Assembly: GCA_028278025.1 (NCBI GenBank) | Contig: JANQFE010000134.1 | Span: forward strand, 1-64,000 | Length of the DNA stretch: 64,000 nt | Source of the DNA: Thermodesulfobacteriota bacterium | Lineage (GTDB): Bacteria; Desulfobacterota; WTBG01; CAIYCZ01; CAIRTM01 | Direction: 5' to 3' | Shown here: piece after piece, positions 6,533-62,371 of the stretch | Numbering within the stretch: the stretch's first letter is position 1 | How the letters are laid out: every line of letters starts with the position of its first letter | The notes under the pieces: generated by a model | Database searches by the model: none | Seen by the model: the letters and a program-made list of their open reading frames with translations, nothing else | What the model was told of the DNA's origin: nothing | Position numbers and translations under genes: made by a program

Positions 6533-6589
6533 GCCCAACGATTGAATTCAGCGTTGCCATATGGCGTCCGCTGGAATGCCTGGTTATAG
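6533..6589 (-). repeat. attC recombination site
   Basis: 57 bp. Minus-strand R'' is CTATAAC (6589-6583) and R' is GTTGGGC (6539-6533). The arms GGCATTCCAGCGGACGCC and GGCAACGCTGAATTCAATC give a compact attC. The TAA in R'' is the stop of the HEPN gene. Confidence 0.85.
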
Positions 6590-6943
6590 GTCCTGATTGT
6601 TTATTTCTAATTTGAATTGCTGAAATATATCGACGGCCTTCTGTACCAACGGAATCAGGCGACTGGGAAAAAGATCGAGTGCGTATGCATGGCTGAAGAA
6701 GTGACGAAATGCGAGAAAAGGGCTAAGTTCAGTAATAAGTTTTTCGGAGAGGATGTTGTTTTGTCCGGCGGCCAGTAACAGATCACGGTGCCATGATGAA
6801 CCCTCAGGTATAGAGATATTTTTAGCCTTGAATGCCTGCTTTAGAACATTTTCCAGGCCATTATAGAAAGTGTGCAAAAGTGCGGAAAGGGTGTATTCAA
6901 TGGTCTCATACTCGGCTTCAATACGCAAGTGGTAATCAGGCAT
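6584..6943 (-). CDS. HEPN-domain ribonuclease-type toxin (HepT-like) of a HEPN/MNT pair
   Basis: 119 residues from the ATG at 6943, which overlaps the last codons of the MNT gene by 8 bp. The catalytic HEPN motif Rx4-6H is intact as RHFFSHAY near residue 88. The all-helical sequence and length fit HepT-like proteins, which are RNA-targeting toxins neutralised by AMPylation or binding by the partner MNT protein. The stop codon is inside the attC at 6533-6589, so the toxin-antitoxin pair forms one mobile cassette, the first of the visible array. Toxin-antitoxin cassettes are known to stabilise integron arrays; that role here is inferred. Confidence 0.8.
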   Translation of the reverse strand: MPDYHLRIEAEYETIEYTLSALLHTFYNGLENVLKQAFKAKNISIPEGSSWHRDLLLAAGQNNILSEKLITELSPFLAFRHFFSHAYALDLFPSRLIPLVQKAVDIFQQFKLEINNQDL

Positions 6944-7205
6944 AGAGCACAACCCCCTCCTGTAAGACCAATTCAGTGAATTTTGTCTTTTTAGAAAGGT
7001 CCACGACATCGACTGGTTTAGATAGCGCACAGAGCAACTCACCGTAGAAGGCGTAAAAATCCTTGTCCGGTATACCTTCAACTGCAATATCGATATCCCT
7101 GCTTTCAACCGTATCGGAAAGTGCTGAGCCGAACAATAACACACGTGAGGCGTGGTATTTCCGGGCGAGATCCTGAATTGTTTTTTTTTCTTTATCGGCA
7201 ATCAT
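6936..7205 (-). CDS. Minimal nucleotidyltransferase antitoxin (MntA-like)
   Basis: 89 residues with the diagnostic polymerase-beta type motif: GSA followed ten residues later by DIDIAVEG (about residues 26-45), giving the GSx10DxD catalytic site. These proteins AMPylate the partner HEPN toxin, or were long annotated only as nucleotidyltransferase antitoxins. Order antitoxin-toxin with an 8-bp overlap is the family standard. The start ATG at 7205 has no strong ribosome site. This is the gene nearest to where an attI site would be expected. Confidence 0.85.
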   Translation of the reverse strand: MIADKEKKTIQDLARKYHASRVLLFGSALSDTVESRDIDIAVEGIPDKDFYAFYGELLCALSKPVDVVDLSKKTKFTELVLQEGVVLYA

Positions 7206-7368: not shown

Positions 7369-8013
7369 TTACATTTCCGGTTCATCATCCTGCAGAATAT
7401 CAGGCGTCAGCAATATTACCAGTTCCGTAATCTTAGCCTGCCTCGGCCTGCCCTTGAAAAGGTAGCTGATCAGCGGGATATCACCTAAAATAGTCAGCCG
7501 GTTACTGTCGTTTATGTCCGTGGTAGCCTGAAATCCGCCCAGCAGAAGCGTTGTACCATCCGCTGCAAACGTTGTCAGGCTTGTCTCCTGAAGCGTGATA
7601 TCATCACTTGCAGAGATAATCCCAAGGTACAGGTTTACATAGCTGGTCCCGAAAGTCTGATCCATTGCATCACCTTTGGTAATCACACCGTTTGAATCCA
7701 TATCAGGAGCAAGTACTATATTCAATTCTTCTTCCGTTTCATCCTGGGAAAAAACATTCAGATTAAGCACATCAATTGCAAGCTGCTCAGTTGAATCCTG
7801 GGTCACCTCGGCAAGCATGGTGCCGACAAGCACTTGCTGAACAGTCTGCAGAGCTGCCTGTTCACGTTTCTTGGCAACATCTGATTGAATGATCATACCC
7901 TCAACAGCAAGGGTAATGAAATCATCTGCCGGAGGCTGTATAACGCAGCTGTAAAAACCAAGACAGACAAAACACACTATACCAAGCAACCATACAGTCT
8001 TATGCTTTCTCAT
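7369..8013 (-). CDS. Lipoprotein with a C-terminal secretin-type domain
   Basis: 214 residues. The N-terminus is a lipoprotein signal (about residues 1-22, ending FYSC). The C-terminal third (GTTLLLGGF, then ILGDIPLISYLFKGRPRQ and ELVILLTPDIL) is the conserved end of type II/III secretion secretins and PilQ, where the GDIP-LFK block forms part of the beta-barrel gate. A complete secretin is two to three times longer and has N0/N1 domains; here they are absent, so this is a mini-secretin or a secretin-derived lipoprotein. It has a perfect GGAGG ribosome site. No other pilus or secretion gene is nearby. Function unknown. Confidence 0.7.
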   Translation of the reverse strand: MRKHKTVWLLGIVCFVCLGFYSCVIQPPADDFITLAVEGMIIQSDVAKKREQAALQTVQQVLVGTMLAEVTQDSTEQLAIDVLNLNVFSQDETEEELNIVLAPDMDSNGVITKGDAMDQTFGTSYVNLYLGIISASDDITLQETSLTTFAADGTTLLLGGFQATTDINDSNRLTILGDIPLISYLFKGRPRQAKITELVILLTPDILQDDEPEM

Positions 8014-8332: not shown

Positions 8333-8926
8333 CTAAAGCTGCCGCAGTTTTGCTTTAAAAACCTCCAAAGGCTGCGCACCGACAATGGAGTAGTGCTGTT
8401 CAATAATGAATACCGGAACAGCGGTAATACCGAATTCATAGGCTTCTTGAGCAGACCTGTGGAGCTGCGCTGCATAGCGCTGCTGCTGCAAAGCAGTCTG
8501 CAATTCTTTTGCATCGAGGCCCACTTTGCCGGCAATCGTTCCCAGGACATCAGAATTTCCAATGTCCTGTAGTTCGGTAAAATATGAACGCAACAGGGCC
8601 TCGTGAAATTCATCAAATTTGCCCTGGTCCCGGGCATATTCGGCTGCCTGCAGTGCCAATTTCGAGTTGGCAAGCAGGGTAACATTACCGAATTCAATAC
8701 CAAACTGAGCTCCTTTCATTCGAAGGTCCCTGTACATCTCTTCCCAGTCAATGTGAGGCAGACGTTCAGCAAGCAGGACACCTGCCGGTGGAGTTTCAGG
8801 ATGAATTTCATAGCCCAGCCACTCGTCCACGATATCAAATTCTTCTTTGAGAGTATCGACAATACCTTTGCCGACATAGCAGAAGGGTCAGATATAATCT
8901 GAAAATATGCGCACTGAAATACTCAT
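8333..8926 (-). CDS. DsbA/FrnE-family thioredoxin-fold oxidoreductase, probable selenoprotein (UGA at codon 13)
   Basis: The region 8333-8830 encodes the body of a FrnE-like DsbA protein. Extending the same frame upstream gives MSISVRIFSDYI, then UGA (8890-8888), then PFCYVGKGIVDTLKEEFD, that is an active site U-P-F-C where the family has C-P-F/W-C. The ATG at 8926 has a GAGGG ribosome site about 8 bp upstream, and the frame is otherwise uninterrupted for 197 codons, the usual family length. The cis-Pro loop (GITAVPVFII, about residues 158-167) is present. Immediately after the UGA a small stem-loop can form (CCUU/AAGG and UGC/GCA around a 7-nt loop), in the position of a bacterial SECIS. Selenocysteine at the attacking Cys is known in other thioredoxin-fold proteins. 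A nonsense mutation is the alternative. Confidence 0.75.
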
Positions 8927-9111
8927 GTGGCGGCCCTCTTAATTGTTAAAAAGTATTTAGACATTCGGCAGTAAGGTAACTATTGCAGTTAACAACCCGG
9001 TATTTAAAGACTGAACTGCATCTCCGCTCAAGCGGGAATGACAAGCAACTGTATAGTATGTTATGGTTCAAACAACAGACTGTCATTTATTCCAAAAATA
9101 CTACTTCTTGT

Positions 9112-60043: not shown

Positions 60044-62371
60044 CCCGTATGGGGTGCGACGCCTGGGGGAGAAGAGAACTATCTGGTTTAGGTGGTTTCA
60101 ATCCACGCACCCGTATGGGGTGCGACTTGTTTCGTTCCTCCTCCCTCCATTAAATCAGTAGTTTCAATCCACGCACCCGTATGGGGTGCGACTTTTGCGC
60201 TTGGTTAATCTGCTGTCTTATGCTTTGTTTCAATCCACGCACCCGTATGGGGTGCGACAATGTCGGTTTCAGCTTGCATCCAACACCATTTGTTTCAATC
60301 CACGCACCCGTATGGGGTGCGACGATACTAAAGGCCAGCAGTTCCATTGATCGACTGATCGTTTCAATCCACGCACCCGTATGGGGTGCGACCCAACCAA
60401 CTGCGGTAGGCAAGCTAAATGGTATGTTTCAATCCACGCACCCGTATGGGGTGCGACGCCCGCATCAGGCTGCTTGCACGGTGAAGTTCGGTGTTTCAAT
60501 CCACGCACCCGTATGGGGTGCGACACATGTTTCCGTAAGCTTAAGTCAGAAATTAAAAGGTTTCAATCCACGCACCCGTATGGGGTGCGACTTGGACGAT
60601 ACGACGCTTCTTCACAGATGACAGTGTTTCAATCCACGCACCCGTATGGGGTGCGACCACGACGCATCTGTTCGATTTCCTGTAACAATCCGTTTCAATC
60701 CACGCACCCGTATGGGGTGCGACTTTCTGGACGTGATCAACTGGTTTTGCATAAGTTGTTTCAATCCACGCACCCGTATGGGGTGCGACATGGCGCGGAC
60801 CCTGGGTTTTACACAAGAGGTAATGTTTCAATCCACGCACCCGTATGGGGTGCGACGCAGATTGCCTTTAAAGTGTTTGGCAAAATGGTGGTTTCAATCC
60901 ACGCACCCGTATGGGGTGCGACTTTGGTGCATCAGGAATTCCCTATCAGAAAATATGTTTCAATCCACGCACCCGTATGGGGTGCGACTACAGCACTGTG
61001 TTTTTCATATAACGGTTTTGCTGTTTCAATCCACGCACCCGTATGGGGTGCGACCGTTGACTTTTCAATGGTCAATTCGGCTGTTCTGGTTTCAATCCAC
61101 GCACCCGTATGGGGTGCGACCTTCCTTGTATGGTATTTCGTATGCACCACTGGCGTTTCAATCCACGCACCCGTATGGGGTGCGACTCAAACACAGCGTT
61201 GTCTTTACGAAGTGGCGTGGTTTCAATCCACGCACCCGTATGGGGTGCGACGTGACCAGTTCCGTCATTGCTTTTGTGTTAGATTGTTTCAATCCACGCA
61301 CCCGTATGGGGTGCGACGGCATGAAGGTGAACAAATTGGACATTTCAGATGTTTCAATCCACGCACCCGTATGGGGTGCGACTTTCCTCCTTTCTTAATA
61401 GTATTCATAAATTATGTTTCAATCCACGCACCCGTATGGGGTGCGACTTGATCTGTCAAATACAGCCTACACTATGGGCGGTTTCAATCCACGCACCCGT
61501 ATGGGGTGCGACCCTTTCTGTGTTTTGGTTTGAAAGATTTAAAATTGTTTCAATCCACGCACCCGTATGGGGTGCGACTTACGCAGCCTGCAAAACTCTT
61601 GCAAGTCCTGCCGTTTCAATCCACGCACCCGTATGGGGTGCGACCTGATCGCGCGTGCATCTTCAGCAGATCCAGAGTGTTTCAATCCACGCACCCGTAT
61701 GGGGTGCGACTTCACAGTCAAGTGTTATCAAGCGCGCCGTAAAAGTTTCAATCCACGCACCCGTATGGGGTGCGACTCCTTACCCTTACAATTAGTATTC
61801 GTAAATTATGTTTCAATCCACGCACCCGTATGGGGTGCGACGAAGTTTCAGGCTTTCGTCTTCGTACTTCATTTTGTTTCAATCCACGCACCCGTATGGG
61901 GTGCGACTTTTCTGCTGCTTCCTCAGCTTCCTGCCGGGACGGTTTCAATCCACGCACCCGTATGGGGTGCGACACACCCTAATTGGGGATCAGATGGGTT
62001 TAGGTAGTTTCAATCCACGCACCCGTATGGGGTGCGACTAGCCTTGATGCAGTCATGGCCGACAACATTATTGTTTCAATCCACGCACCCGTATGGGGTG
62101 CGACTCGGGTGGGATGTCTCGGGAGCCAGCAACCTGGAGGTTTCAATCCACGCACCCGTATGGGGTGCGACTCGTCCAGACCTAGTGTTGACAGTGTCGA
62201 AAAAAGTTTCAATCCACGCACCCGTATGGGGTGCGACGCACCATTGATGACCTAAAAAAGCCGAAGCCGAATGTTTCAATCCACGCACCCGTATGGGGTG
62301 CGACTAAGCTCCCACCACTTCACAAGAGCTACTTAGTTAGTTTCAATCCACGCACCCGTATGGGGTGCGAC
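60044..62371 (-). CRISPR. CRISPR array, type I-C-like, 35 full repeats plus one truncated
   Basis: Thirty-five identical 32-bp repeats (plus-strand GTTTCAATCCACGCACCCG...GGGGTGCGAC; complement ends GATTGAAAC, the type I-C form) start at 60095 and end at 62371, with spacers of 33-37 bp (mostly 34). A truncated repeat, CCCGTATGGGGTGCGAC, lies at 60044-60060, so there are 35 spacers in all. The leader and cas genes are on the right, so the array is transcribed leftwards on the minus strand and the truncated repeat is at the old (trailer) end. Confidence 0.97.

Follow-up and report, generated by a model that had tools for sequence, protein, structure and literature searches.

We report here a FrnE-type gene of the DsbA family that very probably encodes a genuine selenoenzyme, predicted from its sequence and a structural model to be a cytoplasmic thiol-disulfide oxidoreductase with selenocysteine (Sec) as its catalytic nucleophile. 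The gene lies in a window of 64,000 nt (the whole stretch of DNA that was analysed), and its features are collected in Table 1. It is a further DsbA-like UxxC (COG2761/PF01323) selenoprotein, of a kind already known since 2005; COG2761 corresponds to the FrnE group. Sec-containing DsbA-like proteins with a UxxC motif (COG2761) were first reported in 2005 in the Sargasso Sea selenoproteome (PMC1088965), and members from Deltaproteobacteria and Desulfotomaculum followed in 2006 (PMC1794560). They are described from marine samples as DsbA 1 (PMC2398784) and have an entry as DsbA-like protein form 1 in a 2026 review (PMC13188914). The DsbA fold, Sec in UxxC, a bacterial SECIS after the UGA and widespread Cys homologues are shared with this family (PMC1088965, PMC13188914), and no essential difference was found, the members in PMC1794560 being set beside the gene by description. 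What is added here for the UPFC clade is the tracing of the stem-loop in a fixed register and a Sec/Cys sister pair.

Table 1. Features of the predicted selenoprotein gene, in window coordinates
Feature	Position	Strand	Basis or remark
FrnE-type DsbA-like selenoprotein gene (predicted), complete	8333..8926	-	197 residues + stop; one-TGA translation, Pfam PF01323, FrnE structure match
In-frame TGA read as selenocysteine, U13 (predicted)	8888..8890	-	Nucleophile position of U-P-F-C; column TGA or TGC/TGT only
TGC, Cys16, resolving cysteine (predicted)	8879..8881	-	Invariant in alignment A1; the protein's only Cys
CCG, Pro171	8414..8416	-	Invariant in alignments A1 and A2
Shine-Dalgarno-like AGAGGG	8934..8939	-	7 nt 5' of ATG; read from sequence
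165-codon ORF with GTG start at 8830	8333..8830	-	Plain ORF caller's version; active site missing
SECIS-like stem-loop	8855..8875	-	8 pairs, 5-nt loop AGGTA with guanosine; minimum-energy structure and conservation

A single in-frame UGA at the active site

The gene runs on the minus strand from an ATG at 8926-8924 to a TAG at 8335-8333 (594 nt), and the sole internal stop of this frame is the TGA at 8890-8888, residue 13, in the context FSDYI-U-PFCYVGK. Read through this codon, the protein matches the Pfam DSBA model (PF01323) over residues 5-194 (E 2.6e-28, 99.6 bits against a curated cut-off of 25.6), and because the match crosses the TGA, the sequence on both sides of it forms one domain. 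A sequence-only reading of this DNA had placed a DsbA/FrnE-like gene at 8333-8926, with a UGA at the nucleophilic Cys codon of a CxxC, a ribosome site, conserved sequence on both sides of the UGA and no other defect, and it had expected gene callers to start past the UGA. Its coordinates are correct, the strand having been absent from it, and the identity is borne out by the Pfam match and by FrnE as the best match both in the sequence search and by Foldseek. The ribosome site is there too, there is exactly one in-frame stop, close relatives are free of other stops and frame breaks, and a caller would indeed begin at the GTG and lose the active site.

No signal peptide was apparent in the 197-residue protein, strand 1 of the model beginning at residue 3, and none of the NCBIfam models scored over its cut-off against the protein. 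No second copy of the FrnE-like gene was found in the genome at E <= 0.001, and the organism is thus without a close Cys paralogue as a fallback.

The gene stands alone, with no conserved neighbourhood in the loci compared, so that context names no partner. Just downstream of it lies a 214-residue secretin-domain protein (7369-8013, minus strand), unusually small for a secretin. Further along (6584-7205, minus strand), a Nucleotidyltransferase (Polbeta) ORF overlaps a HepT-like ORF, an arrangement like that of MNT/HepT toxin-antitoxin pairs. The window also holds a CRISPR array at 60081-62240, which may continue, with about 35 copies of GTTTCAATCCACGCACCCGTATGGGGTGCGAC at a spacing of 65-69 nt. 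An Rfam search of the 64,000-nt window returned nothing at or above the gathering score, and a crude scan of the window, blind to short pre-TGA parts, gave no convincing further TGA-split genes.

Conservation of the UGA codon among homologues

Across 297 related genomes, homologues had either zero stops or a single TGA. The site codon was TGA in 58 of the 69 loci checked base by base (TGC in six, TGT in five) and in 63 of 80 loci of named genomes (TGC/TGT in 17), a set that overlaps in part with the first; after removal of duplicates the tree held 110 TGA and 27 Cys (TGC/TGT) sequences, with TAA or TAG in none. Because loci were fetched with UPFC-group patterns, the ratio of Sec forms to Cys forms in these counts is biased. 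In all 58 TGA loci of the base-by-base set the stop sits at the identical codon and is always TGA, which is not chance. The alignment of homologues called for by the sequence-only reading thus shows C or U (TGA) and nothing else at this position. Cys16, the motif's second Cys, is kept in every locus examined, and the protein is conserved both N- and C-terminal of the TGA. The homologue of Oceanirhabdus seepicola (L151) has U-G-F-C in place of U-P-F-C.

Could the TGA be a nonsense mutation or a sequencing error in a Cys-type FrnE gene, that is, a recent pseudogene? TGC to TGA is a one-base change, and the assembly that holds the window is fragmented into 170 contigs. However, 110 distinct homologues, drawn from several phyla, have TGA at the same codon and none has TAA or TAG there, close homologues are without any other stop, and conservation of the protein flanks the TGA. 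We therefore rejected a pseudogene or an error, on the independent conservation of TGA in relatives, and give such an origin practically no credence.

Equally hard to credit is a true start after the UGA, at GTG 8830, with the upstream part untranslated. This is the ORF that a plain caller gives, but the domain would then be without strand 1, helix 1 and the active site, and Cys homologues are full length. Moreover, over 11 codons 5' of the TGA the protein sequence is conserved, many of the codon differences being synonymous (57, as against 44 non-synonymous) and I7, D10 and Y11 being invariant in the alignment, and on this ground the later start was rejected.

A conserved SECIS-like stem-loop follows the UGA

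In the minimum-energy structure, bases 15-22 pair with bases 28-35 (U of UGA = 0), which puts the loop 20 nt past the UGA. This stem-loop agrees with bacterial SECIS elements as PMC1088965 describes them, just 3' of the UGA and with a small apical loop carrying a guanosine. Its support from comparison is much stronger than that from the single-sequence fold, whose stability against shuffles is modest (z -2.2). We scored the stem in one fixed register over all homologues, with synonymous-codon shuffling as the null. The UPFC TGA group (n=16) keeps 6.94 of the 8 pairs (5.4 under shuffling) and the UPWC TGA group (n=42) keeps 6.88 (4.8 under shuffling), against 3.0 in the Cys homologues (3.9 under shuffling).

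Over the 56 distinct TGA rows pairing holds in 385 of 448 cells, whereas reassigning whole 3' arms among sequences gives 312 +/- 7 and reached 385 in 0 of 2000 trials; two-sided (compensatory) changes number 84 as against 30. Both kinds of shuffle ignore relatedness among the sequences. The best slid register pairs 243 cells. The UPWC group passes the covariation test alone (281/328 vs 249); the sequences of the UPFC group alone (104/120 vs 102) are too alike for such a test. The same stem is built from different letters in the two groups (GUCGGCAA/UUGUCGAU and UUCAGUAC/GUAUUGAA), and position 2 of the loop is G in 53 of the 56 rows. The stem-loop that the sequence-only reading had noticed after the UGA is therefore conserved with compensatory changes and decayed in Cys homologues, and the SECIS check that it proposed gave an 8-pair stem whose 5-nt loop carries the expected G.

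Some homologues depart from the common register. Two TGA homologues (L049, L050) have a long stem displaced by three bases, GGGCGAGA/UCUCGCCC, which suggests turnover of the SECIS within the family. L081, L083 and L084 form a separate deep TGA clade (UPWC, same site) that is poor in the common stem register; it is possible that this clade represents an independent origin of Sec. A Gaiellales homologue with TGC (L152), in a genome with selA, keeps 7 of the 8 SECIS pairs. It was the only Cys homologue above its synonymous null in a fossil-stem test (p 0.021, one of 17 tests), with no significance left after correction for the 17 tests, and it may be a recent change from Sec to Cys that has left a fossil SECIS.

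Selenocysteine machinery

All four Sec genes named for checking by the sequence-only reading (selA, selB, selC and selD) were found in the genome. SelA (610 bits), selB (375 bits) and tRNA-Sec (selC, 72.7 bits) are all above their curated cut-offs; selD is broken by the assembly into two pieces (L008 and L009, on contigs C91 and C33) whose contig ends overlap by exactly 99 nt. The N-terminal part of selD has an in-frame TGA of its own, in KAG-U-AAKLSP, and selenophosphate synthetase is here likely to be a selenoprotein itself.

A further alternative is that suppression, or a reassigned code, makes the UGA specify Cys or Trp and not Sec. Other homologues do have Cys at the site; against this stand the complete Sec system of the genome and the downstream stem-loop, which is kept with TGA and lost with TGC/TGT. 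TGA is, moreover, an ordinary stop in the window, ending 10 of its 39 long ORFs, which argues against general recoding and led us to reject general UGA reassignment. Decoding as Cys or Trp by any route is, in our judgement, highly improbable, and Sec is the preferred reading of the codon.

By hand count, 71 of the 73 genomes with a verified site TGA have selA over its cut-off, as do 14 of the 24 Cys genomes, so that Cys at the site needs no loss of the machinery. Since selA is frequent among these relatives (266 of the 297 searched), its co-occurrence across the phylum contributes little, and it is the comparison of sister genomes that carries weight. Two TGA homologues come from genomes without selA over cut-off: L063 (G208), with 8/8 stem pairs and a genome that also lacks selB and tRNA-Sec over cut-off, and L184 (Desulfocucumis palustris, G319). 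Both are draft assemblies, and missing contigs are the likeliest reason for the absent selA. In a contamination check, the tetranucleotide make-up of G208 contig C37 was not clearly foreign.

Fold, subfamily and proposed function

The AlphaFold model (pLDDT 92.7, pTM 0.88) has as its top Foldseek match the FrnE of Deinococcus radiodurans (TM 0.90, 32% identity), followed by SCO1869; a sequence search likewise gave D. radiodurans FrnE as the closest solved structure (E 3.4e-24). Together with a CP(W/F)C-type site, these best matches by sequence and fold place the protein in the FrnE subfamily. PMC8945050 describes FrnE proteins as DsbA-family thiol oxidoreductases, predicted to be cytoplasmic, with a CP(W/F)C motif; many of them, though not all, have a C-terminal CxxxxC that plays a part in regeneration. 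Our protein has a single Cys and no such pair. The pair is also missing from the FrnE of S. roseofulvus and D. maricopensis (PMC8945050), and hence does not define the family. The protein has the fold, active-site position and predicted cytoplasmic location of D. radiodurans FrnE (DR_0659; PDB 5CNW and others), but with Sec in place of Cys22, without the C-terminal CxxxxC and with 197 rather than about 250 residues. Streptomyces coelicolor SCO1869 (PDB 3GL5), a putative DsbA oxidoreductase, has the same fold (TM 0.90) but is a Cys form with 25% identity.

We infer how Sec would be inserted and what chemistry, reaction direction and reductant the enzyme would have. SelA and SelD would produce Sec-tRNA(Sec) from selC, and SelB would bind the stem-loop just 3' of the UGA and bring Sec to that codon. 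The selenolate of U13, at the start of helix 1 (which begins at residue 14 in the model), would then attack a substrate disulfide or oxidised thiol, and Cys16 would resolve the selenosulfide; Pro171, judging by the fold family, would occupy the cis-proline position of the thioredoxin fold. An external reductant, for example thioredoxin or glutathione, would regenerate the enzyme, a step proposed in view of the missing C-terminal CxxxxC pair, which D. radiodurans FrnE has.

The main job of the selenoprotein may, however, be something other than protein disulfide exchange, with glutathione disulfide, electrophiles, peroxides or metal(loid)s as possible substrates. Its structural neighbours in Foldseek include kappa GST and HCCA isomerase (TM 0.74-0.79), which share the fold, and there is no conserved neighbourhood to name a partner. 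Listeria Lmo1059, a DsbA-family protein with a CPFC motif, is a strong reductant of GSSG and a weak one of insulin (PMC10715225), which makes GSSG reduction a live alternative; it is a Cys form, likened here by description. On the other side, the best sequence and structure matches are FrnE disulfide oxidoreductases, and the UPFC pair suits dithiol-type exchange. We regard a different main substrate as unlikely, if well worth keeping in mind, and favour a thiol-disulfide oxidoreductase of the FrnE type.

Sec and Cys forms in the evolution of the family

In the tree, the sister of the window sequence (support 99/87) is the homologue L108 of the Thermodesulfobacteriota MAG SKW55 (G003), whose site codon is TGC. 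The search for Sec genes in this genome (97% complete) gave no selA match and neither selB nor tRNA-Sec over the curated cut-off, and five of the 8 stem pairs are left, all 8 being intact in the window sequence. The remaining close tree rows carry TGA, which makes Sec-to-Cys the simpler direction for this pair. Three Bathyarchaeota Cys forms (L168, L170, L171) are placed among bacterial Sec forms, a position in the tree that suggests that archaea acquired the gene by transfer and that it changed to Cys.

We tentatively propose, as a plausible view that falls a little short of probable, that Sec forms predominate in the UPFC FrnE clade, an ancient subfamily spread across Thermodesulfobacteriota, Bacillota, Actinomycetota, Nitrospirota, Chloroflexota and Armatimonadota, a spread that rests on the loci fetched, some of them from MAGs with possibly wrong labels. 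Cys forms would have arisen repeatedly from Sec, for example after loss of the machinery, the reverse of the trend from Cys to Sec that has been reported for the majority of thiol selenoproteins.

To conclude, ordinary annotation cuts this selenoprotein gene short, and since no NCBIfam model scores over its cut-off either, many such genes are probably mis-annotated. The same gene is present in cultured Desulfotruncus, Alicyclobacillus and Pseudalkalibacillus, and its function is thus open to testing. The sister pair, one member with Sec, the machinery and a SECIS, the other with Cys, a decayed stem and without the machinery, provides a useful natural experiment on selenocysteine loss.
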